Source: Panacagrimonas perspica
GTDB taxonomy: Bacteria; Pseudomonadota; Gammaproteobacteria; Nevskiales; Nevskiaceae
NCBI RefSeq assembly: GCF_004364935.1
Contig: NZ_SOBT01000008.1
Coordinates: 1,801,534 to 1,865,533 of the forward strand
Direction of reading: 5' to 3'
DNA: 64,000 nucleotides
The translations under genes were made by a program, and so were the position numbers. The notes under the pieces were generated by a model, which had not been told where the DNA came from, made no database searches, and saw nothing but the letters and a program-made list of their open reading frames with translations. Positions 18,630-64,000 of this stretch are shown here, one piece after another (positions within the stretch are counted from its first letter, which is position 1; each line of letters begins with the position of its first letter).

Positions 18630-18666
18630 CTTCAGGGCTCTACGAACAAGCAACTGGAATACGTCG

Positions 18667-19584: not shown

Positions 19585-19587
19585 GTC

Positions 19588-45865: not shown

Positions 45866-45936
45866 GTAGCCCGGGTGAAACCCGGGGCTGTTGCTCTTGA
45901 TCCGGGGAAAGCTCCCGGCGATTGCGCCCGGGCTAC
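45866..45936. repeat. GTAG-type REPIN, CCCGGGTG family
   Basis: GTAGCCCGGGTGAAACCCGGGG (45866-45887) faces an inverted copy ending CGCCCGGGCTAC at 45936. Both arms can form hairpins. Confidence 0.72.
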
Positions 45937-46152
45937 CGCAAGCGCGAAAGACAACGGCTAACGCGAAGGCGCAAAGGAATAAAGCAAGGACGCGAAGAAA
46001 ACATCCTTTGCATCCGTGCTCCGCTTTTCTCTGCGCCTCCGCGTTCGCCCTTCCAAACCGCCCGTAGGCCCCGGTACTTGCAGGTTGCGCGGATACCGCC
46101 CGCCCACGTCGAACCGCGTCTGCGTGATCGGTCCGAGCGAGCAGCAGCGATG

Positions 46153-46219
46153 TCGCCCGGGTGAAACGCGAGGGCCTCCTTGAGGACGAAGCGCAACCCC
46201 GGGTTTCACCCAGGCTACG
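46153..46219. repeat. GTAG-type REPIN, CCCGGGTG family (left arm mutated)
   Basis: The right arm CCCGGGTTTCACCCAGGCTAC ends at 46219, two bases from the desT stop. The left arm begins GTCGCCCGGGTG and has lost the GTAG head. Confidence 0.68.
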
Positions 46220-46221
46220 GA

Positions 46222-46911: not shown

Positions 46912-46938
46912 GGGGCCATGATAGTGCGGCCAATAATA

Positions 46939-46960
46939 TACATCTGTATAGACAAATGTA
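46939..46960. promoter_or_regulatory. Operator-like palindrome in the desT/desC intergenic region
   Basis: TACATCTGTATAGACAAATGTA, a 22-bp near-palindrome (TACATnTGTnTAnACAnATGTA, 18 of 22 symmetric). It covers the -35 region of the desC promoter and lies 28 bases from the desT start, as expected for the site of an autoregulating TetR protein. Confidence 0.65.
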
Positions 46961-46976
46961 CTCACGCCCGTATACT
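46949..46976 (+). promoter_or_regulatory. Sigma-70 promoter of desC-desB
   Basis: TAGACA (46949-46954), 16-base spacer, TATACT (46971-46976): one mismatch in each box. The -35 box is inside the palindrome, so repressor binding would block it. Confidence 0.65.
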
Positions 46977-47018
46977 GGCGCTGTCCACTCCCGGACGGCC
47001 GTAGGCGTTCTTCGTCCC

Positions 47019-48089: not shown

Positions 48090-48104
48090 ACGAAGACCAC
48101 CTCA

Positions 48105-49365: not shown

Positions 49366-50118
49366 ATGAGCGCCACGAACATCGCCACGGTGGAAGCCCC
49401 GCCCAAGGCACCCTGGATCCAGCTCGCGCTGGCCTTGTTCGTCATCGGATCGGTGTTCGCGATCTATCGCGTCTACCAGCACAGCACGGCCTTCACGCTG
49501 GGCCTCGACTACTTCTCCGAGGACTTCCAGACCTACTGGATGACGCTGCTCTACGCGCAGCTCCCTATCCTGACGCTGCTCGGCGCCGGCATCGTCGGCC
49601 GCCTGTGGTTCACGCGCGAACGTTATCCGGCCCAGGTCAGCGCGCGCGAGGAACTGCGCCGTCATTACGTGGTGCTGTCGCAGATCCTCGTGTTCGCGAT
49701 CGTCGCGTATCTCACCGCTTCGATCTTCACCGAGGCCGACGCGGCCTGGCACCAGGTCACCGTGCGCGACACCGATTTCACGCCGACGCACATCGGGCTG
49801 TTCTACTTAGGCATCCCCTGTTTCATCATGGCCGGCATCGTGGCCTTCACGTATGCGCACACGCGGCTGCCGAAGTTCATCGAGCGCGTGTCGCTGCCGT
49901 TCGCGCTGGTCGTCGCCGGCCCGATCATGATCATGCCCAACCTCGGCCTCAACGAATGGGGCCACACGTTCTTCTACGCCGAGGAACTGTTCGCCGCGCC
50001 GATCCACTGGGGCTTCGTGCTGCTGGGCTGGGCGACGTTCGCGGCCGGTGGGCTGGTCGTGCAGCTGTTGACGCGCATCGTCGAACTGACGCGCGTGATG
50101 GACAAACCCGCGGGCTGA
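49366..50118 (+). CDS. pmoC: Copper membrane monooxygenase subunit C (PmoC/AmoC family)
   Basis: 250-residue, about six-helix membrane subunit of the methane/ammonia monooxygenase superfamily. The conserved copper ligands are all present: D125, H129 and H142 in EADAAWH and TDFTPTHIG (spacing D-x3-H-x12-H as in PmoC), and N196 and H200 in LNEWGHTFF. Further family segments are EELFAAPIHWGF and YAHTRLPKF. GGAGAGAG precedes the start. It heads a C-A-B operon. The symbol names the family only; methane, ammonia, a short alkane or alkene are all possible substrates. Confidence 0.93.
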   Translation: MSATNIATVEAPPKAPWIQLALALFVIGSVFAIYRVYQHSTAFTLGLDYFSEDFQTYWMTLLYAQLPILTLLGAGIVGRLWFTRERYPAQVSAREELRRHYVVLSQILVFAIVAYLTASIFTEADAAWHQVTVRDTDFTPTHIGLFYLGIPCFIMAGIVAFTYAHTRLPKFIERVSLPFALVVAGPIMIMPNLGLNEWGHTFFYAEELFAAPIHWGFVLLGWATFAAGGLVVQLLTRIVELTRVMDKPAG

Positions 50119-50182
50119 GCGGCGGGTCACTCGCGGACTTTCGCCACTCCACGAGCGAAGGCCGCACAGGGAGAAGCACCAT

Positions 50183-50953
50183 ATGGCGCAAGACGCCCCC
50201 GCAGCACCGGCGCCCACGCGAACCGCGGTGGCGACGAGCGCCGAACAGCGCCGCGCCTACATCCAGTTCGACCTGCTGATCATTCCGCTGATCGTGCTGC
50301 TGTTCATGGGCATCTTCAGCTTCCACTTCGCGCTGCTCGTCGGCGACTGGGATTACTGGGTCGACTGGCGTGATCGCCGCTGGTGGCCCCTGGTCACGCC
50401 GCTGGCGCTGTCCGTGCTGCCCGGCGTATTCGGTTACCTGCTGTGGGACCGCCTGCGACTGCCGGTGGCGGGCACCCTGACCATCCTGTGCCTGACGTTC
50501 GCGTCCTGGGTCAGCCGCTACCTGAACTTCCACCTGTTCGCGGATTTCCCGATGAACATGGTGTGGCCCTCCACCTACATCGCGCTGGGCCTGATCTTCG
50601 ACTGCATCCTGCTGCTGTCGCGCAGCTTCTTCGTCACCGGGCTCTTCGGCGGCTTCCTGTTCGGGCTGCTGGTGTACCCGCTGAACTGGCCGCTGCTCGC
50701 ACCGTTCCAGGTGCCGGTCGAACTGCACGGCACGATGCTCACCGTGGCCGACCTGCTCGGCTACGAGTACGTGCGCACGGCGATTCCGGAATACGTGCGC
50801 AAGATCGAGCAGTCCACGTTGCGCACTTTCGGCGAGGCGGTGACGCCGCTCACCGCGGTCTTCGCCGGGTTTCTGAACATCCTGAACACCTGGTTCTGGA
50901 TGTGGATCGGATACCTCGGCGCCAAGTCCGTGTGGCTGAGGAAGATCACGTGA
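50183..50953 (+). CDS. pmoA: Copper membrane monooxygenase subunit A (PmoA/AmoA family)
   Basis: 256 residues with about seven membrane helices. Family landmarks are in order: DYWVDWRDRRWWPLVTP, FASWVSRYLNFHLFADFP, LVYPLNWPLLAPFQ, VELHGTMLTVADLLGYEYVR and TAIPEYVRKIEQSTLRTFG. These correspond to the segments of PmoA used as functional markers. Many residues between differ from methanotroph PmoA and nitrifier AmoA, so this belongs to neither classical clade as far as can be judged by eye. It lies 64 bases after subunit C. Confidence 0.93.
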   Translation: MAQDAPAAPAPTRTAVATSAEQRRAYIQFDLLIIPLIVLLFMGIFSFHFALLVGDWDYWVDWRDRRWWPLVTPLALSVLPGVFGYLLWDRLRLPVAGTLTILCLTFASWVSRYLNFHLFADFPMNMVWPSTYIALGLIFDCILLLSRSFFVTGLFGGFLFGLLVYPLNWPLLAPFQVPVELHGTMLTVADLLGYEYVRTAIPEYVRKIEQSTLRTFGEAVTPLTAVFAGFLNILNTWFWMWIGYLGAKSVWLRKIT

Positions 50954-52233
50954 TCGACGCCGCCGGAACACCCACCGCGGCGAAGCTGCGTTCGCGACGC
51001 GAGCGCCTGCGCCGCCGCACGCTGCGGATGCTCGCGCTCTTCTACGTGCTGATGCTGCTGCCGCTGGTGGCGGACGCGCACGGCGAACGCGCGCAGATGC
51101 CGCAGCTGCGCATGAGCACCGTGCACTGGTTCGACATCGAAGTGTCGACGACCAGGCTCGACGTCAACGACGAGATCGTCGTGAAGGGCAGCTTCATGCC
51201 CTCGCGCTTCTGGCCGGAGCACGTGGAATCCATCGAGGGAACGGCGTTCCTCAACATCGGCGTGCCGGGCCCATCGTTCGTGCGTCTCGACTCGCGGGTC
51301 AACGGCGTGCCGATGATCCGCTCCACGCGCTTCATGCGTGGCGAGCTCTACCACTTCGAGATGCGCCTGAAGGCACGCAAGCCCGGCCGCTACCACGTGC
51401 ACCCGCTGATCAACGTCAAGGGCACCGGCCCGATCATCGGGCCCGGGCGCTGGGTCGAAGTCGGCGGCAACGCAGCGGACTTCCGGCTCGAGGCCACCAC
51501 CCTGCTCGGCCAGAAGATCGATCTCGAACACTACGGGTTCGCCAATGCGGCCTGGTGGTCGCTGTTCTGGTTCGTCTTCGGGCTGTCGTGGTTCGTCTAC
51601 TGGCTGCTCGAGTGCCCGATCGTGATTCCGCGCTTCAAGCGGCGCGACGAACTGGGCGTGGATGCCGACCAGATGATCACGAAGGCCGACCGCCGCTTCG
51701 CCTTCATCTATCTGACGCTGACCCTGTCGTTCATCGTCGGTGGCTACCAGTACGCCCAGGCGAGTTATCCGATCACGACGCCGCTGCAGACCGGCCGCGT
51801 CAACGTGCCGCCCGCGGAACGTCCCGCACCCACGGTGAAGGTGGAGATGGTCGAGGCGCGCTATCGCATTCCCGGCCGCAGCTTCCGCATCGAACTCAAG
51901 GTGACCAACAGCGGCAACAGCGCGGTCACCGTCGGCGAACTCGCGGCGGGCAACCTGCGCTTCGTCAACGCGGCGGTCTCGAAGGTCGTGCCTGCCGATG
52001 AAGACGATCTCGTGGCCGCCGACTCGCTGCGCGTGGAGAATGGACCGGTGCAACCGAGCGAAACCAGGAACATCGTGATCTATGCCGACGACGCCATGTG
52101 GGAGACGCAGCGCATGACCACGATGATCAAGTCGCCCGACGCCAACGTGGCCGCGATGCTGTTCTTCTACGGCGCCGACGGCGAGCGCCACATCGTCGAG
52201 ATCGGCGGCCCGATGATCCCGGTGTTCGGCTGA
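50950..52233 (+). CDS. pmoB: Copper membrane monooxygenase subunit B (PmoB/AmoB family)
   Basis: 427 residues from a GTG overlapping the subunit A stop (GTGA). After a long basic leader and signal segment (about 27-43), the mature protein should begin with H44 (HGERAQMPQLR). H44, H149 and H151 (GRYHVHPLINV) form the CuB site, and H59 in TVHWFD matches a further copper ligand of PmoB. Two membrane helices lie at about 196-216 and 240-260, with a C-terminal cupredoxin-like domain after. Everything needed for a functional B subunit is present. Confidence 0.93.
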   Translation: MIDAAGTPTAAKLRSRRERLRRRTLRMLALFYVLMLLPLVADAHGERAQMPQLRMSTVHWFDIEVSTTRLDVNDEIVVKGSFMPSRFWPEHVESIEGTAFLNIGVPGPSFVRLDSRVNGVPMIRSTRFMRGELYHFEMRLKARKPGRYHVHPLINVKGTGPIIGPGRWVEVGGNAADFRLEATTLLGQKIDLEHYGFANAAWWSLFWFVFGLSWFVYWLLECPIVIPRFKRRDELGVDADQMITKADRRFAFIYLTLTLSFIVGGYQYAQASYPITTPLQTGRVNVPPAERPAPTVKVEMVEARYRIPGRSFRIELKVTNSGNSAVTVGELAAGNLRFVNAAVSKVVPADEDDLVAADSLRVENGPVQPSETRNIVIYADDAMWETQRMTTMIKSPDANVAAMLFFYGADGERHIVEIGGPMIPVFG

Positions 52234-52826
52234 TGCGGGCACTGCTGGCGGTCCTGCTGCTCGCGTCGAGCACCGCGCTGCAGGCGCATGGTGGCGTCTC
52301 GATGGAAGACGACCACTGCATCATGCGCATCGGCCCGTACCGCGCCCACTTCACCGGCTACCAGCCGGAGACGCGCGCCACGCAGGAGTTCTGCGAAGAC
52401 ATTCCGGAGCTGGGCAAGGCGATCATCGTCGTCGACTTCGTCGATAAGGTCCTGCGCGAACAGAAGGTCGAGTTCCGCGTGCTGCGCGACACCCGGCAGC
52501 TCGGCAGGAAGGCGCGCCACGAAGATCTGGGAACACCTGCCGAGATCGATGCCGCGACCCTGTTCAAGGCCGACGCGCAGGCCTACCCGAAGGGCACGCT
52601 GACGTTCGAGCAGCGCTACGAACAGCCCGGCTGGTTCATCGGCATGCTCAGCGCCACCGATGCGGACGGCAAGACGCTGCACTCGGTGTTTCCGTTCCAG
52701 GTCGGCGTCTCGCACCCCTGGCGCTATGTGCCGGCCTTCGTCCTGGTCGTCGTCTTGAGCCTGTTGATCTACCGGCTGACGGGGCGCAACCTGCCCTCGC
52801 CCACTCCCGGAAAGAGCGACACCTGA
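52233..52826 (+). CDS. AmoD/PmoD-like periplasmic protein of the monooxygenase operon
   Basis: 197 residues; its ATG shares a base with the subunit B stop (TGATG). Signal peptide (about 1-18) leaves an N-terminal histidine (H19), followed by a Met/His/Cys-rich segment (SMEDDHCIM: M24, H28, C29, M31) and C54, then a soluble domain and one C-terminal helix (about 167-186). This architecture and gene position match AmoD/PmoD, copper-binding proteins encoded after amoCAB in nitrifiers and methanotrophs. Sequence similarity is weak by eye, so the assignment rests on position and layout. Confidence 0.62.
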   Translation: MRALLAVLLLASSTALQAHGGVSMEDDHCIMRIGPYRAHFTGYQPETRATQEFCEDIPELGKAIIVVDFVDKVLREQKVEFRVLRDTRQLGRKARHEDLGTPAEIDAATLFKADAQAYPKGTLTFEQRYEQPGWFIGMLSATDADGKTLHSVFPFQVGVSHPWRYVPAFVLVVVLSLLIYRLTGRNLPSPTPGKSDT

Positions 52827-52831
52827 GCCTC

Positions 52832-53245
52832 ATGCATCGCCGAACGTCTGCTTTGCTTCGCCTCCTCGCGACCGTCGCGTTGTTCGCCGCGAGTCTCGGT
52901 ACCGCCTGGGCCCACGCGGCGCTGACCAAGTCGAGCCCGGGCAACCGCGAAGTGCTGGCCAAGTCGCCGGCGAATATCCACCTGCAGTTCAACGAGAAGG
53001 TGGAAGCCAAGTTCTCGACGGTTTCGATCGAGGACGCCAAGGGCCAGAAGCTCGCGCTGCCGGCGCCCACCGCGTCGCCCGACGACGCCTACGGTCTCGA
53101 CGTGGCCGTGCCGGCGATCCTCGCCGACGGTCGCTACACGGTGAAGTACCGGGTGCTGTCGCAGGACGGTCACGTCATCGAGCGCTCGTTCGCGTTCACG
53201 TTGAAGACCGCAACGAGCGAGTCCGCAGCGCCGACGACGCCGTGA
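52832..53245 (+). CDS. copC: Periplasmic copper-binding protein CopC
   Basis: 137 residues. The signal peptide ends GTAWA, leaving a mature N-terminus HAALTKSSPG whose histidine is the Cu(II) ligand in CopC. The beta-barrel has LQFNEKVEAKFSTVSI, with the second copper motif QDGHVIERSFAF near the end. CopC-CopD pairs are regularly found beside copper monooxygenase genes and supply copper to the periplasm or membrane enzyme. It is followed by copD with a four-base overlap. Confidence 0.92.
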   Translation: MHRRTSALLRLLATVALFAASLGTAWAHAALTKSSPGNREVLAKSPANIHLQFNEKVEAKFSTVSIEDAKGQKLALPAPTASPDDAYGLDVAVPAILADGRYTVKYRVLSQDGHVIERSFAFTLKTATSESAAPTTP

Positions 53246-55161
53246 TCGAGGCCTATGCCGCGGGCGCTCGCGCGCTCGCCGTACTGGCCTCGGCTCACCT
53301 GATCGGCGTCACGCTGTTCCTGCTGCGGGCGGGTCCGCTTCCCGCAGGCGAAGAGCCTCGGGCCTGGGACCGCGGCCTGCGTCGCACCCTGCCCATCGCC
53401 GCGTTGCTGCTGTGCCTGGCATTGCTCGCGGTGCTGCACGCGCAAGCCTGCGGTGTCGCGGGTGGATGGGCGTCGCCCGACCTGATGGCGCAACTGGCGC
53501 GCGATACGGCGTATGGGCATTGGTGGTGCCTGCGTGCCCTGGGCGCCATGGCCGTCCTGTTCATCGCCTGCGTGGCCACCGCCACGCCCGCTCCCTTGCT
53601 GCGCGCTGCTGCATTGGTTGGCACCAGCTTCGCCGCGGCCACCACCATCGCGCTCGCACCGCTGACGGGACACGCGGCAGGCACGGAGCAGGCCGCCTGG
53701 CTGGTGCCCTTGCACATGGCGCATCTGCTCGCGCTCAGCGCATGGCTGGGCGCGTTGCCGGCGTGGATCGGTCTGGCTAGACGTGCCGCGCATGAACCGG
53801 ATGCGCGCATTCGCGATTTCGTCGCGCGTGCGCTCGAGCGCTTCTCGCGCCTGGCGATGGCGTGCATGGCCGTCATCGTCGGCACTGGCGTCGTGCTCGC
53901 GTTCCAGTTCATCGACGACCAGGGCGACCTGCTGGGGACGCGCTACGGCCTGCTGTTGTGCGCCAAGCTGGTCGTGCTCGTCTTCGTGCTGCGCATCGCC
54001 GACGCCGTGCGTCGCCGCGTGCTGCCGCGACTGCGCACGGCCGAGGCGTCCGATGCGTTCGCTGCGGGCGCGACGTCCGTCCGCCTGGAATGGTGGCTCG
54101 CGCTCGGCCTGCTCGGCCTGGGTGCCACCCTTGCCCAGACCGTCCCGGCGATCCACGACCAGCCGTCGTGGTGGATGCCGGTGCGCCTGTCGTTCGAAGC
54201 GGGCTGGGCCGATCCCGCCACGCGCGTCGCGATCTGGCTCGGCGCTGCATTGATCGTCTTCGCCGCGGCGCTGATCGCCCCGATGAGACGCTCGCGCCCC
54301 TTGCGCATGGCCGTCTCGGTCATCGGCGTCGCCGGTGTCGCGACCGCGCTGTGGGGCCTGTCGGTCAGCGCGTTCCCCGACACCTTCCTGCGTCCACCGG
54401 TGCCCTATCTGAGCTTGTCGATCGACCAGGGGCGCCGCGCCTTCGAAGCCAACTGCACGGCCTGCCACGGCAGCGGCGGTCTCGGCGACGGCGCGCTGGG
54501 GAAGACGATGCGCAAGCCGCCGGCGAATCTCAGCGAACCGCACACCGCGCTGCACACGCCCGGCGACATGTACTGGTGGTTCACGCACGGCATGCCGGCG
54601 GGCCCGATGCCGGGATTCGCCGGCGTGCTCGACGACGAGCAGCGCTGGGACCTGGTGAATTTCCTGCGCGTGTTCTCGCAAGGCTTCCAGGCGCGGGTGC
54701 TCGGTCCCCGGGTCGTGCCCGGAAAACCCTGGCTGGGCGCGCCGGATTTCTACTACCAGACCGGCGACGGCAGCAGCGCGCAGTTCAAGGACCTGCGTGG
54801 CCGTTCGCCCGCGCTGGTGGTCTTCGACGTCGCGGAAGATCCGCTCTCCGTCGCCCGGCTCGAGGCGCTGCGTAACGCAGCAGATGCTTCGTTCACGCTA
54901 ATCGTGCCGCGGAGCGAGGACGTCTGGCAGGCCTACCAGTTCCTGACGCGGACCCTGGCGGATCGCGGCGCCAGCGATAGGGTCGGTATGCCGCGCCGTC
55001 ATGTGGAATTCCTGATCGACCGCTTCGGCTATATCCGCGCGCGCTGGATTCCGTCGGACGAGGCGGTGCCGTGGACCGCGTCGTTCGACGTGAAGGCCGA
55101 GGTTGCACGACTCGCGAGCGAGCCGCAGATCCTGCCGCCACCGGATCTGCACCTGCATTAA
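53242..55161 (+). CDS. copD: CopD copper permease fused to cytochrome c and a thioredoxin-like domain
   Basis: 639 residues from a GTG (GTGA overlap with copC). Residues about 1-390 are a CopD-type membrane domain with some nine helices and histidines such as HMAHLLALSAWLGALP. Residues about 395-485 are a cytochrome c domain with CTACHG (C405, C408, H409) and Met ligands in HGMPAGPMPGF. Residues about 505-639 look like a thioredoxin/peroxiredoxin fold without a CxxC pair. Ordinary CopD stops after the first part. The fusion suggests that copper uptake is tied to redox state or electron delivery for the monooxygenase. Confidence 0.85.
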   Translation: MIEAYAAGARALAVLASAHLIGVTLFLLRAGPLPAGEEPRAWDRGLRRTLPIAALLLCLALLAVLHAQACGVAGGWASPDLMAQLARDTAYGHWWCLRALGAMAVLFIACVATATPAPLLRAAALVGTSFAAATTIALAPLTGHAAGTEQAAWLVPLHMAHLLALSAWLGALPAWIGLARRAAHEPDARIRDFVARALERFSRLAMACMAVIVGTGVVLAFQFIDDQGDLLGTRYGLLLCAKLVVLVFVLRIADAVRRRVLPRLRTAEASDAFAAGATSVRLEWWLALGLLGLGATLAQTVPAIHDQPSWWMPVRLSFEAGWADPATRVAIWLGAALIVFAAALIAPMRRSRPLRMAVSVIGVAGVATALWGLSVSAFPDTFLRPPVPYLSLSIDQGRRAFEANCTACHGSGGLGDGALGKTMRKPPANLSEPHTALHTPGDMYWWFTHGMPAGPMPGFAGVLDDEQRWDLVNFLRVFSQGFQARVLGPRVVPGKPWLGAPDFYYQTGDGSSAQFKDLRGRSPALVVFDVAEDPLSVARLEALRNAADASFTLIVPRSEDVWQAYQFLTRTLADRGASDRVGMPRRHVEFLIDRFGYIRARWIPSDEAVPWTASFDVKAEVARLASEPQILPPPDLHLH

Positions 55162-55270: not shown

Positions 55271-55337
55271 GTAGCCCGGGTGCAACCCGGGATCCCGCTC
55301 GCGAGAGGAGAAAAGCCTCGGGTTGCACCCGGGCTAC
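55271..55337. repeat. GTAG-type REPIN, CCCGGGTG family
   Basis: GTAGCCCGGGTGCAACCCGGGA (55271-55292) faces an inverted copy ending GGTTGCACCCGGGCTAC at 55337. The head of the right copy forms the TAG stop of the minus-strand DUF6122 gene (55334-55336). Confidence 0.8.
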
Positions 55338-55654
55338 GGTTGCTCCATGCGCAGACAGTCAGCCGCATCCAGGGCGATGTGGATGACGAGTCCCAGCCCC
55401 AGCAGCCGCGTCTGCGGCAGCACCAGCATCGCGCCGTACAACGCGATCGCCGGCGCGCGGTGCAGCGGATGAAAACCGATGCTGCAACGATTCGGCGCGT
55501 AGACCGGATCTGCCACCAGGTGATCGACGTCGATCATCCAGCCGCACAGCATCACGATCAGCGCACGCCGCCATCTCACGCGAAAGAACAGCAGCGCCAC
55601 GGTCAAGGGCACGAAGAAATGCAGCAGCACGTGGACGGTCGGCCCGATGCTCAT
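55334..55654 (-). CDS. DUF6122-like small membrane protein
   Basis: 106 residues with three or four hydrophobic segments. Conserved-looking acidic/histidine patches are WMIDVDHLVADP, GFHPLHRAPA and HIALDAADC, the pattern of DUF6122 and related YdjM-like putative membrane metal-dependent hydrolases. Starts inside the nadR stop (ATGA) and ends in a REP repeat, so it is the last gene of the long MoxR operon. Function unknown. Confidence 0.75.
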   Translation of the reverse strand: MSIGPTVHVLLHFFVPLTVALLFFRVRWRRALIVMLCGWMIDVDHLVADPVYAPNRCSIGFHPLHRAPAIALYGAMLVLPQTRLLGLGLVIHIALDAADCLRMEQP

Positions 55655-56706
55655 CGCAAGGCTCTCAGCACCTGATCGACACGCGAGGCCAGCGATCCTT
55701 CGACGCGCAACAGCTTCGCGTCGTGCTCCGACAATCGCTCCAGATACCAGGCGTGCTGCTCGGCCCTGAACGCCGCGTCGCGGCGCGTGCCGTCCTGCAC
55801 GAACGGGAAATCGGGTTCGCACAGGACGTTCAGCGTGTAACGGCGCCGCGAAAGTTCGAGCAGCCGCGACGACGCGGCGCCGTGATCCTTCAGGCTGTAG
55901 AACAACGTCGTCAGCGGTGTCGTGTCGCAGACGATCGCAGCACCTGCGGGCGCGAGGGCAGCGGCACGGTACTCGCGCTCGACCTGCACCTCGGCCACGC
56001 GCTGCAGATCCTCATACGACAGCACGGCGCCGCCCTGCTCCACCCACAACTCGCGTCCGTATTCCTCGACCGTGACCGTGCCGAGCGCCTGCGCGACGGC
56101 ATGTGCGAGGACGGTCTTCCCGCTCGACTCGCCACCCATCAGCGCGATACGCGGAACCAGGCTCGCGTAAACCTCCGGCGCCATCAGCGACCGCCCGGCG
56201 CGCGGGTCACGGCGCAAGGCCGTGCCCGACGCCGGCACCTGCGCTCGTGCCGGATCGACAGCGACATGGTCGACCGGATGCCCGAACTGCCGGGCCAGCG
56301 ATGCCGCGAAACCTTCGCCGTACGCCTCGCTGGTGAACACCGCGTCCACACTCCCGCCGAAAAGCTCGCGGCAGATCCAGCCACAGAACTCGCGATGGTG
56401 TTCCTCAGGATCGTCGTTGCACGGCATCGCGGGCGCCGGCACCGATACACCCCGGCGTGCGCATTCGGATGGCACCTCGTCGGCACCCAGGATCAGCACA
56501 TGAAGGTTCGCTGCACGCGACGCCGGATAGCGAAGACCAAACCAGCGCCGTCGCTCGGCCGGTTCGCAGCCGTCGAACTCGGGCCGCGTGTAGCCGAGCA
56601 CGAACAACTCGTCGCAAACGTCCAGTGCCGTGTCGATGACGTGCTCGTGGCCGTAGTGCAGCGGACAGAATTTCCCGACGACCAGGCCCCGCGCATATCG
56701 CTTCAC
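55651..56706 (-). CDS. nadR: NadR-type NMN adenylyltransferase/ribosylnicotinamide kinase
   Basis: 351 residues from a GTG at 56706 (GTGA overlap with pnuC). The N-terminal nucleotidyl-transferase domain has GKFCPLHYGHEHVI (HxGH-type motif). The C-terminal kinase domain starts at about 185 with Walker A MGGESSGKTVLA and includes VEEYGRELW. It lacks the DNA-binding HTH found in enterobacterial NadR. Phosphorylates nicotinamide riboside and adenylates NMN, making NAD from the riboside brought in by PnuC. Confidence 0.9.
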   Translation of the reverse strand: MKRYARGLVVGKFCPLHYGHEHVIDTALDVCDELFVLGYTRPEFDGCEPAERRRWFGLRYPASRAANLHVLILGADEVPSECARRGVSVPAPAMPCNDDPEEHHREFCGWICRELFGGSVDAVFTSEAYGEGFAASLARQFGHPVDHVAVDPARAQVPASGTALRRDPRAGRSLMAPEVYASLVPRIALMGGESSGKTVLAHAVAQALGTVTVEEYGRELWVEQGGAVLSYEDLQRVAEVQVEREYRAAALAPAGAAIVCDTTPLTTLFYSLKDHGAASSRLLELSRRRYTLNVLCEPDFPFVQDGTRRDAAFRAEQHAWYLERLSEHDAKLLRVEGSLASRVDQVLRALR

Positions 56707-57278
56707 GTCGTGGGTCCCTGCGCCTGCATCAGCTTCCACCAGTGCCGCCACGACACCAGCGCGTTGACCCAGTACACCGCGTACAGCGCGGCCGTGACGT
56801 ACAGGCCGCGGCTGGCGAACAGCGGCACGGCGACGGTGTTCACCAGCAACCAGATGGGCCAGTTCTCCAGACGCCGCTGCATCAGCAGAACCTGCGCGAG
56901 CACACTGAAACTCAGGACCATCGAATCCAGGAACGGTGCGTACGCGTCAGTCCAGACGTGCAGCAGCGCGCCGTAACCTGCCGCGGCGACGCCGCCGATC
57001 GCCGCCGACAGCAGGAACGCGGATCGCGAGATGCGCCGTATCGGCAAGGGCTGGCGATCGCGACCACCATGCAGCCAATGCCACCAGCCCACGATGCTGG
57101 CGGCGACGAAGAAGATCTGCAGGCTCGCATCCGCGTAAAGCTGAGCCTGCCCGAACACGACGACGAACAAGGCGCAGCCGACGATGCCGGTCCACCAGGT
57201 GTGCACGCTGTTGCGGCCGGCGAGCAGGATCGAAATCGTCGTCACGCCGTTCGCAGCGATCTCCAGCGGTCCCGTCAC
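56703..57278 (-). CDS. pnuC: Nicotinamide riboside transporter PnuC
   Basis: 191 residues from a GTG at 57278, with about seven membrane helices. Conserved Trp/Tyr-rich PnuC segments are SIVGWWHWLHGG, RLENWPIWLLVN and YAVYWVNALVSWRHW. Facilitates uptake of nicotinamide riboside, trapped inside by the kinase of the overlapping nadR. No NadQ/NrtR regulator gene or NAD-II-type riboswitch was noticed, and the pair sits in the middle of an otherwise unrelated operon. Confidence 0.92.
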   Translation of the reverse strand: MTGPLEIAANGVTTISILLAGRNSVHTWWTGIVGCALFVVVFGQAQLYADASLQIFFVAASIVGWWHWLHGGRDRQPLPIRRISRSAFLLSAAIGGVAAAGYGALLHVWTDAYAPFLDSMVLSFSVLAQVLLMQRRLENWPIWLLVNTVAVPLFASRGLYVTAALYAVYWVNALVSWRHWWKLMQAQGPTT

Positions 57279-58648
57279 GTCGCCTCCGCGCCGACCAGCG
57301 CCGAGCTGTACTGCAGCACCTTGTCCTGCGCCTGCAGCACGGCGACGGCGATCGGCTGCGCGCCGAACAAGGGTTGCAGCGCCGCGCATGCATCGTCCGC
57401 AAGATCGAGTTCGCCGGGCGCGAGGCTCAGTTGCAGCTCTCCATCGGCGGCTTGGTGGAACGCGTAGCGCGACATCGGCACGCGCGCCAGCGCGTGACTG
57501 ATGTCGATGTTGTTGAACCACGCGCCCTGGACGTTGCGATATCGCAACGGCCTGCGGCCGGACAAGCCGCGGATCACCGGCACTTCGCCTTCGAACGACA
57601 GCGCGCCGAAATCACCGGTGCGATAGCGCAGCAGCGGCAGGCAGAAATTGAAGCCGCCGCTGACGACGATCTCGCCACGCTCGCCGGGCGGCAGCGCCCG
57701 CCCCTGCGGATCCAGGATCTCGACGTGCAGCCGCGGCTGCAGCAACACATGCCCGCCGGCACGCGCGTCGAACACCGCGATCGGACCGACCTCGTTCATC
57801 GAGTAGATGTCGAGAACCGGGCAACGGAACCGATGCTCGAGACGCTCGCGCAAGGCCGGCGACAAGGCCATCGATACCGACACCAGGGCGCGCGGCCGCA
57901 GGGTCACCGGCAGATCGAGCAAGGTCGTGAACGAGATCGGATCTCCGGCGACCACCTCCGGTTCGAGCGCGTCCAAGTAGCGCGCGCGATCCGCCGGATC
58001 GCGCCAGTCGTCCGGGTGCAGGTTGATCTTGGCCAGGCCCGACTCGTCCATCTGCGGCGTCACCGAGACGTAGGTGAAGCAGCGCTGCTGCATGCCCAGC
58101 AACACCACGCCCACCTGGTCGCGACCATGTCGTAGTTCGATGCCGAAGCGCTTCAGGGCGCGCTTGTGGAACACCAGGTAGCGCGCCGCCACCTGCGGAT
58201 GCGAGGCGATCAGCAGCGGGTGGCCGGTGGTGCCGGTGGTGCGGAAGTTGATCAGGCGGTCGATCGGCACCGCGTCCGGCACGAAGCGCGCGATGTCGGC
58301 GGCAAGGTCCGCGCGCGACGTGGTCGGCAACTCTTCGAAGCTCGGCGGCGGTGGACCGAGCGCGCGGAAGTGCGGCACTTCGGAAAAGGTTTGCTCGACG
58401 AAGGCCTGCAGCCACTCGGGCTCGCCGTCCGGAGTCGACCGGACCGGCGCGGACAGCGTCGCTTGCTCGAACTTGCGCAGCGCATCGAGATCCGCGGCCG
58501 TGAGCCGGTTGCCGCTCTGGTTGCGATAGATCGGCGCGGCCGGGTGCTCGCGCAGGCGCTGCAGCATGCGGCGCCCCGCCTCCGTCAACGTCGGGTAGCG
58601 TGCATCGTCGTCCAGGCCGTCGCCGTCCGGCGCGAGCGCTGCGCTCAC
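57275..58648 (-). CDS. Adenylate-forming enzyme (phenylacetate-CoA ligase/CapK-like)
   Basis: 457 residues from a GTG at 58648 (GTGA overlap). The ANL-family P-loop is weakly conserved as NFRTTGTTGHPLLIASH. The mid motif YSMNEVGPIAVFDA and the hinge-side YRTGDFG resemble phenylacetate-CoA ligases and CapK-type proteins, though the C-terminal lysine motif is not obvious. Predicted to activate a carboxylate as an acyl-AMP. In an operon with a radical SAM enzyme and a MoxR/VWA pair, its substrate could be a small acid or a protein side chain; nothing in the sequence settles this. Confidence 0.8.
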   Translation of the reverse strand: MSAALAPDGDGLDDDARYPTLTEAGRRMLQRLREHPAAPIYRNQSGNRLTAADLDALRKFEQATLSAPVRSTPDGEPEWLQAFVEQTFSEVPHFRALGPPPPSFEELPTTSRADLAADIARFVPDAVPIDRLINFRTTGTTGHPLLIASHPQVAARYLVFHKRALKRFGIELRHGRDQVGVVLLGMQQRCFTYVSVTPQMDESGLAKINLHPDDWRDPADRARYLDALEPEVVAGDPISFTTLLDLPVTLRPRALVSVSMALSPALRERLEHRFRCPVLDIYSMNEVGPIAVFDARAGGHVLLQPRLHVEILDPQGRALPPGERGEIVVSGGFNFCLPLLRYRTGDFGALSFEGEVPVIRGLSGRRPLRYRNVQGAWFNNIDISHALARVPMSRYAFHQAADGELQLSLAPGELDLADDACAALQPLFGAQPIAVAVLQAQDKVLQYSSALVGAEAT

Positions 58649-59229
58649 TCGCGCGACCACTTGTCCGCGGACTCCTCGGCGGCCTTCTTCGCCAGCGCTT
58701 CGCGAATGGCACGGGCACGCGCTTCCGCGGCGCGGCTGGCTTCGAGCAACCGACGCCGCTCGACCACACTCAAGCTCGCCAGGCGATCCGTCGCCTGCGC
58801 CAGGGTTTCGCCTTCCGGCCGGCGATCGAGCCGGGCCAGCACGACTCTCGCGAGTTCCTCGCGACGGTCCGGATCCGTCTGGAAGCGCGCCACGGGCGTC
58901 GACTTCGCGAGCTCTTCGGCGCTGCCGTCGAGCACCGTCAGCAGCGCCGGCAACTCCAGCTTCACCGACGTGAACCATTCGTCCGACATCAGCCAGCACA
59001 GCATCGCGACCAGTTGCAGGCGATTGCCGTCGGCCTTGGCGTCGCGCGACGTGAAGCGCGACAGCACGGATTCCGATGCGCGATGACCGAGCCGCGTCAG
59101 CAGATCATTCACCAGCGCCGCAACATGGACGCGCCCGCTCGCCCCGATATGCGGCGCCTCGAGGAACTCGGGCGGCGTGTCGAGCAGGCGACGGTTCAGT
59201 GATTCGATGGGGGGGCCGATCTGCTGCAT
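58645..59229 (-). CDS. Helical protein of unknown function
   Basis: 194 residues (MQQIGPPIESLNRRLL). Almost entirely predicted helical, without signal peptide, membrane helix or cysteine-rich motif apart from a lone Cys in MLCWLMSDEW. The C-terminal 60 residues are a charged Ala/Arg/Glu-rich helix (ASRAAEARARAIREAL), likely coiled coil. I do not recognise a family. It sits between the radical SAM gene (1-base gap) and the ligase (GTGA overlap), so it is probably a partner or substrate of one of them. Confidence 0.7.
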   Translation of the reverse strand: MQQIGPPIESLNRRLLDTPPEFLEAPHIGASGRVHVAALVNDLLTRLGHRASESVLSRFTSRDAKADGNRLQLVAMLCWLMSDEWFTSVKLELPALLTVLDGSAEELAKSTPVARFQTDPDRREELARVVLARLDRRPEGETLAQATDRLASLSVVERRRLLEASRAAEARARAIREALAKKAAEESADKWSRE

Positions 59230-59230
59230 G

Positions 59231-60202
59231 TCAGGCGCTCGCGAATTTCGCAAAGACGTGATTCGAAGGGCAGTCACCGCAGGCTGCGGCCGCCGCACGG
59301 GCTCGCGAGGCGCGGAACCGTCCGCGCAGCGCGACGAGATCGTCCACCGTCCCGAGCTCGTCCACCGGCACGCCGTACTCGGCGGAGCTGAAACTGCAGG
59401 GCGCGATGCGACCCGACTCGTCGACGAACAGGAACTGCTCGCCCGGCGCGCAATCGGCAACCGGCAGTGCCTGCTGTCGCGCGCTGGCCTCCAGACGCTC
59501 CAGGTACGTCGCGCTGCCGCAGAGCTTCACGCCGCGTGCCGCCAGGCGTTCGCGCAGCGGCGCCAGCAGCTGGCGCAGCGATGCGACATCGGCCAGCCGC
59601 AGACCGTGATCGGGAAAGAACTCCGGACGATCGCGCCCACCGAGCTGATTGAACGTGATCTCGTCGATACCCCAACCCGCGAGTTCGTCGCACAGATCGG
59701 AAAAGAGCGGCAGGTTGTCGCGCATCAGCACGACGTTGGCGCGCAGCTTCAGCGACGCGTTGCCCTCGCGACGACGCCGATCCAGCGACACGACGCCCTC
59801 GCGCAGCCGTTGCCACAGACCCGCCCGACCCCGCATCCGGTCGTGGAACGCGGCGGGTCCGTCCACGCTCACCGTGAATTCCGAGAACGTCTGCACGATC
59901 TGCTCGATGACCGGCGCCCGGTGTAGTGCGCTGCCGTTGCTGGTCGCGCTCAGCTCGATTGCGTGGACGTCGCGCAGTTCCTGCGACAGCGCGAACAACG
60001 ACGGCCACAGCAGCGGCTCGCCGCCCAGCCAGCTCAGCATCACGCGCTCGCCGGTCCGGCGGTGGCACAGGCCGAGCAGACGGGCGAAGCGGCGCACCTG
60101 CTCCGGATCCGCGGCGTTGCGGCTGCGCTCGACGCGCCGGTCATAGGCGCAGAAGCCGCAGGCCAGATTGCAGACTTCGGTGACGCGCCACAGGACGATC
60201 AC
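59231..60202 (-). CDS. Radical SAM/SPASM-type protein
   Basis: 323 residues from a GTG at 60202 (GTGA overlap with the VWA gene). The radical SAM cluster motif CNLACGFC (C11, C15, C18) is almost at the N-terminus, followed by the SAM-binding WLGGEPLL and SATSNGS. The C-terminal part has spaced cysteines (KLCGSATYL, DCAPGEQFLF, GRIAPCSFS and C308/C311 in CGDC), as in SPASM domains holding auxiliary 4Fe-4S clusters. SPASM enzymes usually modify peptides or proteins. No precursor peptide was found, so the target may be a protein of the operon. Confidence 0.87.
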   Translation of the reverse strand: MIVLWRVTEVCNLACGFCAYDRRVERSRNAADPEQVRRFARLLGLCHRRTGERVMLSWLGGEPLLWPSLFALSQELRDVHAIELSATSNGSALHRAPVIEQIVQTFSEFTVSVDGPAAFHDRMRGRAGLWQRLREGVVSLDRRRREGNASLKLRANVVLMRDNLPLFSDLCDELAGWGIDEITFNQLGGRDRPEFFPDHGLRLADVASLRQLLAPLRERLAARGVKLCGSATYLERLEASARQQALPVADCAPGEQFLFVDESGRIAPCSFSSAEYGVPVDELGTVDDLVALRGRFRASRARAAAAACGDCPSNHVFAKFASA

Positions 60203-61992
60203 GACACGTCCCGGTAGTGACGTCGCGAGAAGCGCTTCGCGAAGCCGAGCAGGTCCGGCCAGTCCTTGATGGTCTCGATGACCCAGCCCTGCTCGTTCTG
60301 CGCGCGCTGCAGCGCGGCGTCCGGACGTCCGAACAGGTTGAGCACCATCGTGCCGCCGCCACGGGCGCGGGCCAGCGCCTGCGCCGAGACATCCCAGCCG
60401 CTGTTGCCGCGCTCGTCGCGGTCGAACATCGTCGTGATGCCGTCGTCCGAGATCATCAGGATGTGCGCAGGACGATCGCGCTCGGTGCGCCGCGCGAACG
60501 CGTCGCGAAGCTGGTGGATCGGAAACGCCGTGGCGCCGCCGTAGAAGCCGGTGAGCACGCGCAGGATCGCGTCTTCGCTGCGCACGAAACCGTCGGTGTG
60601 CATGAACTGGTTGGCGCCGCTCCACAACGTGGCCTGCACGCGCGCGCCGGCACGCAGCGCCGACAGCACGATCACGGTGCCGGCCAAGGTCAGCCACGAG
60701 GTCTGCTGCTGCGGGTTGGGCATCGAGCCGGAGCTGTCGACGTACAGATCCAGATCCAGCGGCACCGGATCGCGCTGGATGTCGGGCGCCACGCCATAGA
60801 CGCGCCGGACCGTGCTCAGGCCTGGAATCAGGCGCGGCGACTGCATCACGCTCTGCATCGCGTCGAGCGTGTCGAGCGCATCGCCGATGTCCCAGGGTTC
60901 GAGACCCTCCATCTGCGGCTCGAGACTCTGCGGAGCGGGACGGCTCGGAAACGGAATGCGATGCGGCAGCGCGCGCTCGCGGTAGTAGCGCACGGCGATG
61001 TCGTGATCATCGAGTTTCAGTCCGGCGGCACGCAGGATCTCGCCGTACTCGAAAGGTTCGCGGCACTGGCCTGGCGCGTTGGACGTGCGCGTGGACGCAG
61101 CGGGCCCTGGCCTGTCGCCCTTCGAAGCCACCGGCTCGGATTCCTCCTCGCCGGTGATGCGCGGATCGTTGGCGGGATGCACCACGCCGTCGATCTCGTC
61201 CTCGTCGATATCGAGACCGCCCTGCGGCTGCGTGCCCTGCGCCGCGTTCTGCATGTCGTGCCACTGCGCCATCGCCTTGCGCGCCTCGTCGTCCTCCACG
61301 AGGTAGGGCAGCACCAGCGAGGCGAAGCGCCCGGCGCCAGCGAGCCAGTCCCGCGCGTAGACGCGCACGACGCGCGAACCGAGCCAGGCGTCGGCATCGA
61401 TCGTCGCGTCGCGTTCGGTGACGCCGCCGAGTTCACCGCGATCCAGCTTCCACAGCAGTTCGTAGATCCGCAGGTACAGCGTCCACAGGCGGCCGGGACG
61501 CGACTTCTCGCCGCCTTTTTCGATCGCCTCGTGCAGGCGCCGATACACCTCGCCCATGCGCAGCCGCGATTGCCGTTGCAGGCGATCGTTGATGTGCAGG
61601 TCGGTGTAGAGGTTGGCGATCATCGGCGCATGCCGCTCCAGCGTCGGCAGCGCGCGACGGATGCGCGCCAGCAGGCGGAAGTGATCGGTGCCGTTGGCAG
61701 GCGCGTAGACGTGATGGCCGATCTCGTGCGCGAGGATTTCCAGCGCATAGTTCTCGAGACCCAGCTTCTTCACCGATTGCAGGTCCACGACGACGCTCTG
61801 GTCGACGAACCGGATCATCGCGAAGCTTCCGCTCAGGCCTTCGGCTTTGGCCTGCGCCGTCGTGGCGCACAGCAGCGGCGCGTGCAGGCGCGTGAAGCGG
61901 CTCCACGTCGCCAGCGCAGCCGGCCACGCGGCGAGCCATGCCTGTGCCAGCGTCGGCGGCGAAGGCGCGGTTTCGGGCACGTCGGGGTTCAC
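60199..61992 (-). CDS. Zincin-like metallopeptidase with VWA domain (DUF2201-like layout)
   Basis: 597 residues. N-terminal part (about 1-140) carries HEIGHH at 89-94, an HExxH zinc motif, and IANLYTDLHIND at about 125-136, as in DUF2201 metallopeptidase-like domains. A Pro/Asp/Glu-rich linker (about 250-310) follows. The C-terminal VWA domain has the MIDAS motif DSSGS at 419-423 and continues to MISDDGITTMFD. Such proteins work with MoxR ATPases in metal insertion or complex remodelling. Overlaps both neighbours by four bases. Confidence 0.85.
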   Translation of the reverse strand: MNPDVPETAPSPPTLAQAWLAAWPAALATWSRFTRLHAPLLCATTAQAKAEGLSGSFAMIRFVDQSVVVDLQSVKKLGLENYALEILAHEIGHHVYAPANGTDHFRLLARIRRALPTLERHAPMIANLYTDLHINDRLQRQSRLRMGEVYRRLHEAIEKGGEKSRPGRLWTLYLRIYELLWKLDRGELGGVTERDATIDADAWLGSRVVRVYARDWLAGAGRFASLVLPYLVEDDEARKAMAQWHDMQNAAQGTQPQGGLDIDEDEIDGVVHPANDPRITGEEESEPVASKGDRPGPAASTRTSNAPGQCREPFEYGEILRAAGLKLDDHDIAVRYYRERALPHRIPFPSRPAPQSLEPQMEGLEPWDIGDALDTLDAMQSVMQSPRLIPGLSTVRRVYGVAPDIQRDPVPLDLDLYVDSSGSMPNPQQQTSWLTLAGTVIVLSALRAGARVQATLWSGANQFMHTDGFVRSEDAILRVLTGFYGGATAFPIHQLRDAFARRTERDRPAHILMISDDGITTMFDRDERGNSGWDVSAQALARARGGGTMVLNLFGRPDAALQRAQNEQGWVIETIKDWPDLLGFAKRFSRRHYRDVS

Positions 61993-63017
61993 GCCGACGC
62001 AGGCATCACGCGCGGACGAACCCGCAACGCGTAGCTGTACGGCGAACTCACGGCGATCGAATCCTCGGTCGCCGCCACCTCGAGTCCGGCCTCGGGCAGA
62101 TCCAGGGCCCAGGTCGATCCGCCGACGCGCAGCGCTCCCTTCACGATGCTCGCGGGCGGCGCGTAAGGCGCGGGCCGATCACGCGGCGCGCTCTCGAATT
62201 CCGAGACGCCGGCGGGATGCAGCGACCAGCCGTAGACGTCGAGCCGCAACAGGAAGCAGCGCTCGCCGCTGCGCAGCAGGAAGCCGTCGCGACCCGCGCG
62301 GACCTGCGGCGGCTCGGTGAACGCCCCGCCGTAACCGGTGAACGCGCCGACGTGGAAGCCTTCCCACCGGCGTTCGGCCACGGCCGGATCGGGCGACCAC
62401 CAACGTTCCTGCGCGAGCCGAGTGCGCATCGCCGGCCAACTCGAATCCGCCGGAGCATTCAGGGCTGCCACGGCGAGATGTGGGGGCAGCCGGTCCAGCG
62501 CCAGCAGCGCGCCTTCGCGGTAATGCGCCAGGCCCGCCGTCCAGGCCAGTACCTGGCCCAGCGCCAGCAGTTCGTCGTGCGATGCCGCGAGCGCGCCGAA
62601 CCGGCACATGCGCTCGACCCATTCGCCGCCTCGCGCATCCGGTGTGCGTTCGAGATTGATCGCGGCATTCGACAGCGCCGCGATCAGCGGGCCCGGTGCA
62701 GCGGCCACGCGCGCCGGCACTGCCGGCAGGATTTCGCGCCAGGTGCGGTCGAGCAGCACGTTGCGCCGATCCGGCCCGACCAGGCCCTGCGAGACCAGCG
62801 CCAGTGCCGCGTCGAAGGCCGCGACTGCGACGGCCGTGATCGCGTCGGGCGCCCGTGCTGCAACGGCCTCGACCAGCGGCCCCACCCGTTCGCGCAGAAA
62901 GCTGGAGAAGACCTCGGCGTCGAAACGCGGCGAGCGCGAACGAGCCTGCGCGACGCGCGCGTTGAACGCAGGACGCCCTTCGGCGAGAACCCTGGCGAAG
63001 GCGGGCGCGCTCGCCAT
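61989..63017 (-). CDS. Unknown protein of the MoxR operon
   Basis: 342 residues from the ATG at 63017, which overlaps the MoxR stop (ATGA). The first two thirds are Ala/Leu/Arg-rich helices (VEAVAARAPDAITAVAVAAF); the last third is beta-rich (FLLRSGERCFLLRLDVYGW, LRVGGSTWALDLPEAG). No signal peptide or membrane helix. No family recognised. Its place between the ATPase and the VWA protein suggests an adaptor of that machine. Confidence 0.75.
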   Translation of the reverse strand: MASAPAFARVLAEGRPAFNARVAQARSRSPRFDAEVFSSFLRERVGPLVEAVAARAPDAITAVAVAAFDAALALVSQGLVGPDRRNVLLDRTWREILPAVPARVAAAPGPLIAALSNAAINLERTPDARGGEWVERMCRFGALAASHDELLALGQVLAWTAGLAHYREGALLALDRLPPHLAVAALNAPADSSWPAMRTRLAQERWWSPDPAVAERRWEGFHVGAFTGYGGAFTEPPQVRAGRDGFLLRSGERCFLLRLDVYGWSLHPAGVSEFESAPRDRPAPYAPPASIVKGALRVGGSTWALDLPEAGLEVAATEDSIAVSSPYSYALRVRPRVMPASA

Positions 63018-64000
63018 CACTGCGCGCGCAGCCAGTGCAGGTAGTTGGTGTAGCGCTGGTGCAGGTACTTGAGCTTCAGCAGATCGTCGTACAAATGTCC
63101 GTAGAGTTTCTTGCCGCGCACGCGCTCGGCGACGAGCTGCTCGATGCGCACCAGCCGCGCGCGTGTCTCGCGCTCCGACAGGTCGTCGAGTCCGCGATCG
63201 AACTCCGCGCCGAGATTTCCGACGGGATCGTCGCGATCCAGGTCGAGCCGGTCGTATTCCTCGCAGGACAGGTCGAACAGGCGACGCAGCCAGCCCAGGC
63301 GATCGGTCTTGTACGCGCCGTTCTCCGGCAGCGCGAAGAACGGCGCCTCGAGATCCGGGTGCAGCTTGTCCTGCAGCACGAAGGGCAGCACCTGACGCAG
63401 GTCTTCGAGATCCACCGACGGATTGCCGCGGAAGAAGGCCAGGCCCTTCGAATAGATCATCAAGGTCATCAGGTTTCGCACCGACAGGCCGTTGCGGGTC
63501 TGGCAGCCGAGATCCTTCAGGCGATCGCGGCCGTCGTCGCCGGCCGTGATCTCGCTCCACTCCACGCCGGACAACCGCGCGACGTCCTTGGTCATCGTCT
63601 CGAACTGCGCGCCCGCGCCTTCCATCAGCTCGAACTGGCTGGCGAAGAATTCCAGCCGTCGCCGCACCGGCACCGGCAGCTCGACGGCGCGGATCTGGCT
63701 GCCCAGGCGATCCACCTCGGCCTCGGTGAACACGATCTCCTGTGGCACCAGTTCCTCGGGCTTCAGGTTCTGCTCGATGCGCGACAACAGCTGCTCGAGG
63801 AAACGCGGGTTGAACGCGAGCGCTGGCACGACGACGTCGATGCGATCACGCAAGGCCTCGATGACCTGGTACGTGCCGCCGCCGCGATCGTCGTTGGCGG
63901 TGAGGTACCAGGCCGATTCGGGGCATTCGAAGATGTGGTTCAGGACCTCGGCGTAGTTGTCGCCCATCACCGTGAGCAGCGCGCTCTGCGTGCGCGTCGG
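63017..64000 (-). CDS. MoxR-family AAA+ ATPase (5' end outside window)
   Basis: C-terminal part of a MoxR-type ATPase; the coding frame runs through base 64000. Visible are the sensor region NHIFECPESAWYLTANDDRGGGTYQ, an arginine-finger-like ALRDRIDVVVPAL, and a long C-terminal helical domain (RLFDLSCEEYDRLD and onward) beyond the usual lid. Walker A and B lie outside the window. MoxR ATPases pair with VWA proteins to mature metalloenzymes. It is the first visible gene of the overlapping operon. Confidence 0.85.
   Translation of the reverse strand, partial: PTRTQSALLTVMGDNYAEVLNHIFECPESAWYLTANDDRGGGTYQVIEALRDRIDVVVPALAFNPRFLEQLLSRIEQNLKPEELVPQEIVFTEAEVDRLGSQIRAVELPVPVRRRLEFFASQFELMEGAGAQFETMTKDVARLSGVEWSEITAGDDGRDRLKDLGCQTRNGLSVRNLMTLMIYSKGLAFFRGNPSVDLEDLRQVLPFVLQDKLHPDLEAPFFALPENGAYKTDRLGWLRRLFDLSCEEYDRLDLDRDDPVGNLGAEFDRGLDDLSERETRARLVRIEQLVAERVRGKKLYGHLYDDLLKLKYLHQRYTNYLHWLRAQ

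Follow-up and report, generated by a model that had tools for sequence, protein, structure and literature searches.

MoxR-class AAA+ ATPases paired with proteins that carry a von Willebrand factor A (VWA) domain are a known kind of motor, including a form in which the VWA domain is joined to a metallopeptidase. In NorQ-NorD, the motor acts on its target through the VWA partner (accessible part of PMC13036017). The vWA-MoxR ternary conflict systems add a third component to MoxR and VWA, one subset having a stand-alone radical S-adenosylmethionine (SAM) protein, and their accessible description stresses that the effectors vary and that the hosts are multicellular (Kaur et al, 2020; PMC7159879). 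Here we analysed a nine-gene operon at one end of a 64,000-nucleotide stretch of the Panacagrimonas perspica genome (contig NZ_SOBT01000008.1, positions 1,801,534 to 1,865,533; hereafter the window), which encodes a MoxR ATPase and a zincin-like HExxH/VWA protein together with two proteins of unnamed families (P342 and P194), an acyl-adenylate ligase, a radical SAM enzyme and proteins of nicotinamide adenine dinucleotide (NAD) salvage. We found that MoxR, P342, the zincin/VWA protein, P194 and the PaaK-like ligase form a conserved core, and that linked to it are NadR, in many cases together with PnuC, and, in fewer than half of the loci, the radical SAM gene. As a set that includes ligase, P194 and NAD salvage, the operon appears to be undescribed.

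The likeness to NorQ-NorD, a MoxR-class AAA+ protein beside a VWA protein, is the source of the mechanism that we propose below. As far as the accessible text of PMC13036017 goes, the present operon differs in that its VWA protein has an N-terminal HExxH domain, P342 is a putative third subunit, and ligase, P194 and NAD salvage replace the respiratory enzyme. DUF2201 proteins (PF13203; L097-L099) likewise have a zincin-like motif followed by a VWA-like region and adjoin a MoxR gene, but they are shorter and share only weak profile similarity with this VWA protein. In contrast to the variable effectors in the available description of the ternary conflict systems (PMC7159879), the content here, including ligase, P194 and NAD salvage, is constant: variable effectors were not seen, the core being constant in the 80 mapped loci, with extra genes in a few Chloroflexota loci. 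As for their VMAP, iSTAND or FtsH third component, P342 had no Pfam match, and no direct comparison with VMAP or iSTAND profiles was made. Jumbo phages have, by description, the same pairing of MoxR with a metallopeptidase-VWA fusion, and the available parts of that paper mention no ligase, P194 or NAD genes alongside (PMC7824862). The first-pass annotation of the window, made from its letters alone, knew of no described system with this set, and we found none under another name in the literature searched, nor MoxR, NadR and PnuC together; most subscription papers lay outside that search, and among the matches listed nothing came closer than the conflict-system and jumbo-phage papers (PMC7159879 and PMC7824862, both in their accessible parts). 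The operon comprises the following genes:

63017..64000, minus strand: MoxR-class AAA+ ATPase (Pfam AAA_3), 3' part; the whole gene (527 amino acids, start set by our own gene caller) is L001:9551-11134 and extends to ~64600, ~600 bases beyond the window
61989..63017, minus strand: P342, unnamed family, no Pfam or NCBIfam match
60199..61992, minus strand: zincin-like HExxH domain followed by a VWA domain with MIDAS motif, 597 amino acids, assigned by conserved motifs
59231..60202, minus strand: radical SAM/SPASM-like enzyme, 323 amino acids, optional part (Pfam Radical_SAM and cysteines)
58645..59229, minus strand: P194, unnamed family, all-helical in a predicted model, no Pfam or NCBIfam match
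57275..58648, minus strand: PaaK-like acyl-adenylate ligase, 457 amino acids (Pfam AMP-binding)
56703..57278, minus strand: PnuC, nicotinamide riboside transporter (PF04973, TIGR01528)
55651..56706, minus strand: NadR-like nicotinamide mononucleotide (NMN) adenylyltransferase/ribosylnicotinamide kinase, 351 amino acids (AAA_28; TIGR01526 below cut-off)
55334..55654, minus strand: DUF6122 protein (PF19617, 125.8 bits), last gene, outside the conserved set

These nine genes run from ~64600, past the window end, down to 55334 of the window, in a genome of 5.4 Mb. Six of the eight junctions are ATGA or GTGA overlaps of four bases (P342/VWA, VWA/radical SAM, P194/ligase, ligase/PnuC, PnuC/NadR and NadR/DUF6122) and the radical SAM/P194 junction is a 1-base gap, as the first-pass annotation had it; the MoxR/P342 junction, which it had counted among the ATGA/GTGA overlaps, is a 1-base overlap (TGATG). 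Its view of the genes as a single functional unit is supported: the gene order recurs in distant genomes, and ligase and NadR travel along. The divergently oriented gene upstream (L001:11274-11852) had no Pfam match at E<=0.01 and was labelled a transposase by eye only.

A scan of one genome per species gave 201 places encoding a relative of the VWA protein, and for the comparison of loci we used the best 80 of these, a sample in which distant forms are under-represented. Many of these loci are metagenome bins; phyla are as named in the records, genes within loci were called with our own script, and the contigs of L016, L046 and L054 are the same as in G001, G072 and G224. Presence was counted as a tblastn match at E<=1e-4 anywhere in the locus, adjacency not being required. 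Among the 69 loci with at least 4 kb before and at least 6.5 kb after the VWA gene, P342 and the VWA protein were found in all 69, MoxR in 68, P194 and ligase in 67 each, NadR in 61, PnuC in 33, the radical SAM protein in 30 and DUF6122 in 1. Over all 80 loci, the counts were 80 for VWA and P342, 77 for MoxR, 76 for P194, 75 for ligase, 67 for NadR, 37 for PnuC, 35 for radical SAM and 1 each for DUF6122 and a copper monooxygenase. Thus, ligase and NadR travel with the set, and PnuC does so in about half of the well-flanked loci. The radical SAM enzyme, at 30/69, is not a defining part, and sets of MoxR, VWA and radical SAM without ligase or NAD genes, which would have spoken against the proposed unit, are not the rule; the trend ran the opposite way, with the radical SAM gene often missing. 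DUF6122 was likewise dropped as an operon member: it is a local addition found in a same-genus genome (1/69), and we rejected it as a conserved part (1/80 loci).

The genes follow the order MoxR-P342-VWA-(radical SAM)-P194-ligase-(PnuC)-NadR, mostly with overlaps, and the flanking genes vary by lineage. Over 82 locus-level gene sets (L001 included), our gene calls gave an exact 4-base overlap in 59 of the 76 adjacent P342-VWA pairs and in 41 of 77 P194-ligase pairs. Since the order recurs in distant genomes and exact 4-base overlaps recur with it, the overlaps go beyond chance.

The loci span six phyla: of the 79 in the tree, 64 belong to Pseudomonadota, 6 to Verrucomicrobiota, 5 to Chloroflexota and 2 to Acidobacteriota, and two further phyla have 1 each. 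The VWA protein was present in 2/61 near-relative genomes and in 3/369 genomes drawn from the class, and P194 was found in the identical 3 of these 369. In a Chloroflexota sample, a match to the VWA protein was seen in 1 of 201, which is the query genome itself, and plasmids gave no tblastn match to the protein. The operon is present in 32 of the 40 genomes from Janthinobacterium (the genus to which Janthinobacterium sp. LM6 belongs), 4 of the 32 matches having one in-match stop codon, so that in this genus it is stable and not a fast-moving island. Our best explanation, held as tentatively as the mechanism below of which it is part, is that the operon has spread horizontally yet is locally stable. 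Some loci contain additional genes. Thirteen Oxalobacteraceae loci have an extra protein of ~155-163 amino acids between MoxR and P342, without Pfam match (e.g. L021:8529-8996); the Chloroflexota operon L084 has inserted SnoaL-like and GNAT genes, with look-alikes in L091, and other Chloroflexota insertions encode a proline racemase family protein (L085) and an FAD oxidoreductase, a PNP-oxidase-like protein and an esterase (L094).

The NAD genes belong to the operon. PnuC scored 164.1 bits with PF04973 and 76.6 bits with the equivalog model TIGR01528 (NMN_trans_PnuC; cut-off 42.45). NadR matched AAA_28 at 100.7 bits (cut-off 27), and remained below cut-off for CTP_transf_like in Pfam (16.2 of 21 bits) and for TIGR01526 in NCBIfam (117.2 of 341.15 bits, in two stretches, E 8.9e-34). 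NadR-like proteins (E<=1e-8) were found in 11 of 274 class genomes, 3 of these being carriers of the operon. Ligase and NadR overlap by exactly four bases in 23 of 32 adjacent pairs. In a NadR tree built with a quick method, 57 of the 58 copies at the 3' end of the operon fell on one side of a branch with a Shimodaira-Hasegawa-like approximate likelihood ratio support of 98, together with four short or divergent non-operon rows; three short kinase-only rows of this alignment fill less than half of its columns. The copies of L061, L073 and the Chloroflexota locus L094 (of which L113 is the same gene) lay on the other side, among non-operon NadRs. In L061 and L073, this NadR of a different lineage stands with PnuC directly before MoxR, with gaps of <=20 bases, and in L085 and L091 only a short NMN-adenylyltransferase-like protein follows the ligase. 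These separate NadR lineages, their position at opposite operon ends and the short proteins of L085 and L091 indicate that the NadR association arose more than once. The earlier suggestion of NAD or nicotinamide riboside as a substrate of the MoxR/VWA machine is too strong; what the loci show is a repeated linkage of NAD-salvage genes to it.

The families named from the letters alone held in Pfam and NCBIfam, with the caveat that the VWA protein had no NCBIfam match and, in its window copy, scored below cut-off for VWA_2 (15.3 bits against 27); 15 of 22 members of its family matched VWA_2 at E<=0.5, the best at 0.0026. Across 22 diverse sequences its HEIGHH motif, N127/D131/N135, D419-S421-S423, T488 and D516 are invariant, the last five residues being what we take to be the MIDAS (DxSxS plus T and D). 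The comparison with DUF2201 that had been proposed gave a mixed answer: neither the window protein nor its 22 relatives matched the Pfam profile PF13203, and by hhalign the zincin region was similar to three DUF2201 proteins at E 4.6e-4 (unrelated control, 0.33), with HExxH and NxxxDxxIN aligned, a weak similarity with a probability of 33%. A viral contig (L012:5001-5249) encodes a weak match, 30% over residues 39-129, to the HExxH part of the VWA protein. MoxR matched AAA_3 at 28.6 bits (cut-off 27) and had no match in NCBIfam or, by phmmer, in the PDB. It is unusually conserved, the mean column identity across nine diverse copies being 79%, and its Walker A (GGPGRGKT) and IIDEYNR motifs are largely invariant in 76 aligned sequences.

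Both proteins that the first-pass annotation could place in no family, P342 and P194, indeed found no match in Pfam or NCBIfam with their window copies. For P342, no sequence match was found in the PDB either, and its relatives gave stray weak Pfam matches (1 to 3 of 57 members each, best E 0.011). Its AlphaFold2 model (predicted local distance difference test score, pLDDT, 94.3) has a predicted helical N-terminal part, to ~219, and a beta C-terminal part, and Foldseek found nothing in the PDB at E<=0.001. P194 is predicted to be all-helical (pLDDT 93.9), with a long C-terminal helix at residues 155-193 that is its best conserved part and ends in an SADKW-type tail; Foldseek again returned nothing at E<=0.001, and the best Z of a second structure aligner, 3.5, is at the chance level for helical proteins. 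Sub-threshold similarity of P194 to DUF4158 was seen in 9 of 51 members at E<=1, and of nine members scanned singly 5 reached E<=0.01, the best scoring 24.0 bits against 27.4, which neither confirms nor excludes a relationship.

The ligase matched AMP-binding at 43.5 bits (cut-off 29.9) and the phenylacetate-CoA ligase 2y4o in the PDB (E 1.8e-10), and its Lys443, which we take to be the catalytic lysine, is invariant in 23/23 sequences; that it is a DVU_1553 equivalog was ruled out (84.4 bits against 300 in NCBIfam). The radical SAM protein scored 46.9 bits with Radical_SAM (cut-off 29.5) and aligned nearly over its full length, residues 5-313, with its best PDB profile match, 5wgg. Its CxxxCxxC cysteines (C11, C15 and C18) and those of the auxiliary-cluster type (C251, C269, C308 and C311) are invariant in 18/18 sequences. 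We also considered whether it acts on a specific partner in the operon and dropped the idea as offering no lead: the best-separated alignment columns, uncorrected for relatedness, are surface-like and lineage-bound.

Taken together, the gene association and the intact motifs lead us to propose, with a probability of roughly 0.4, that a cytosolic MoxR/zincin-VWA machine serves a ligase-P194 module and is coupled to salvage of nicotinamide riboside to NAD, the radical SAM enzyme being optional. By analogy with other MoxR/VWA systems, MoxR and the VWA protein would be a motor-adaptor pair, and P342 a third, scaffold-like subunit. The client, if NorQ-NorD is a guide, would be the P194-ligase module, remodelled or activated by MoxR/VWA/P342, with the conserved C-terminal helix of P194 as a possible handle. 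P194 and ligase may together make up one enzyme, the ligase using ATP to activate a carboxylate and P194 being its partner or acceptor; we read them as one module because two Chloroflexota loci each contain the pair twice. PnuC and NadR would supply or consume nicotinamide riboside, NMN or NAD for this reaction, and the radical SAM enzyme would add a modification dispensable in many lineages. Catalytic residues are kept throughout (MoxR Walker A/B, HExxH and MIDAS, ligase Lys443, radical SAM cysteines). The earlier ideas of metal insertion by MoxR/VWA and of peptide modification by the radical SAM enzyme are analogies and, as first put, too strong.

Several observations weigh against this proposal. 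NadR was not found near VWA in 8 of the 69 loci (L017, L036, L040, L044, L062, L087, L088 and L089), and among the NadRs counted the one in L027 is a 55-residue remnant and the one in L022 is cut by the contig end. NadA was present in 21 of the 28 carrier genomes searched (of 31 carriers), so NAD is usually available without salvage; with nadA also in the window (11553-12650), the operon is not a simple rescue of NAD auxotrophy. In L089, MoxR, P342 and VWA stand by themselves, which points to a separable motor unit, but this locus is a metagenome bin that may lack the ligase through incomplete assembly or loss. No residue in the other operon proteins tracks the presence of the radical SAM gene (alignment columns, relatedness uncorrected), and the DUF2201 similarity of the zincin region is, as noted, weak.

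The main rival, which we regard as unlikely, is that the operon serves to synthesise a new cofactor or other small molecule with a pyridine nucleotide as its building block: PnuC and NadR would deliver nicotinamide riboside, NMN or NAD, the ligase would adenylate a carboxylate on it, the radical SAM enzyme, where present, would alter it, P194 would be the carrier, and MoxR/VWA would load metal or place the product in a target. The repeated recruitment of NadR and the intact adenylating ligase fit such a scheme, and most carriers can also make NAD de novo, which would leave salvage to serve something extra. Biosynthesis of the nickel-pincer nucleotide by LarB/LarC/LarE, in the accessible description, offers a precedent by analogy only, a metal cofactor derived from nicotinic acid; LarB/C/E are not among the named families of the operon, and no Lar search was made in carrier genomes. 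The small-molecule enzymes of some Chloroflexota operons (proline racemase-like, FAD oxidoreductase, PNP-oxidase-like, esterase, GNAT and SnoaL) point the same way, but any one of them was seen in no more than two metagenome bins and could be a chance insertion, and the radical SAM gene is missing in most loci. Quite improbable is the specific version in which NadR turns imported nicotinamide riboside into NMN or NAD, the ligase activates a carboxylate that is joined with P194 as carrier, and a client enzyme receives metal or the product from MoxR/zincin-VWA/P342, again with radical SAM optional; if the cofactor reading were true, it would be a second route, unrelated to that of the nickel-pincer nucleotide, by which a metal cofactor is derived from NAD. 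That the NAD genes are chance or co-regulated neighbours of a unit consisting of MoxR-P342-VWA-P194-ligase alone is highly improbable: near VWA, NadR is indeed missing from 8/69 loci and PnuC from 36/69, but NadR is there in 61/69, drawn from different lineages and placed at either end of the operon, against a background of 11/274 genomes, and the exact ligase-NadR overlap recurs in 23/32 adjacent pairs.

Two further explanations are less favoured. We consider it rather improbable that the operon serves protein quality control or proteolysis, with the zincin domain as an active peptidase fed by MoxR and the ligase and NAD genes modifying or protecting the substrate. The HEIGHH motif and the downstream N-x-x-x-D-x-x-I-N are (nearly) invariant and align with the DUF2201 zincin region, and peptidolytic processing is proposed for the jumbo-phage metallopeptidase-VWA/MoxR pair in the available part of PMC7824862; yet the third metal ligand is a putative one, the M48 model was matched by 1 of 22 VWA proteins (E 0.0043), and no partner resembles a degradation factor. 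An anti-phage conflict system of the MoxR-VWA kind, in which NAD salvage would protect or restore the NAD pool, is improbable as well. The patchy spread over six phyla, with 3/369 class genomes, would suit it, MoxR-VWA ternary conflict systems have been described (PMC7159879, in part), and the radical SAM protein resembles the PADLOC viperin models (pVip) at 57.6 bits. This match is restricted, however, to the radical SAM core, the NCBIfam viperin model lies far out of reach (54.3 of 180 bits), and the other five of the six proteins scanned with PADLOC matched nothing; moreover, 32/40 genomes of one genus carry the operon, and its constant content without swapped effectors is unlike what the accessible part of PMC7159879 describes.

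Elsewhere in the window, a copper membrane monooxygenase operon (49366-55161, plus strand; AmoC, AmoA and AmoB profiles) converges on the MoxR operon. After AmoB it encodes a 195-amino-acid protein without Pfam match, which is also kept in a same-genus genome, then CopC, and CopD with a cytochrome c; PF02461 was found in 3/3 genomes of the genus searched. We rejected a general link between the MoxR operon and amoCAB-like operons: the convergence was seen in the window genome and its same-genus relative (L006/L016), 1/80 loci, and another genome of the genus, G002 (a fragmented assembly of 480 contigs), has the monooxygenase without a VWA match. The adjacent genes at 43575-49202, which together with the monooxygenase may make up an oxidation pathway, encode a pyrroloquinoline quinone (PQQ) dehydrogenase with a cytochrome c domain, a regulator of the TetR type, a protein resembling ferredoxin reductases and a member of the fatty acid desaturase family. 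The run at 17209-24952 comprises a carrier-protein-like protein of 79 amino acids, a class II tRNA synthetase-like protein (below cut-off), DUF1839 and a glycosyl hydrolase 2-like protein, and presumably resembles amino acid:carrier protein ligase clusters.

That a five-gene core, including two unnamed families, has kept its order across six phyla implies strong selection for an as yet unassigned function, and since the carriers include cultured Janthinobacterium, Duganella and Sphingomonas, this function is directly testable. If the coupling of MoxR/VWA to the ligase and NAD salvage is real, it would add a new kind of client for MoxR machines and give NAD salvage a use beyond filling the NAD pool.

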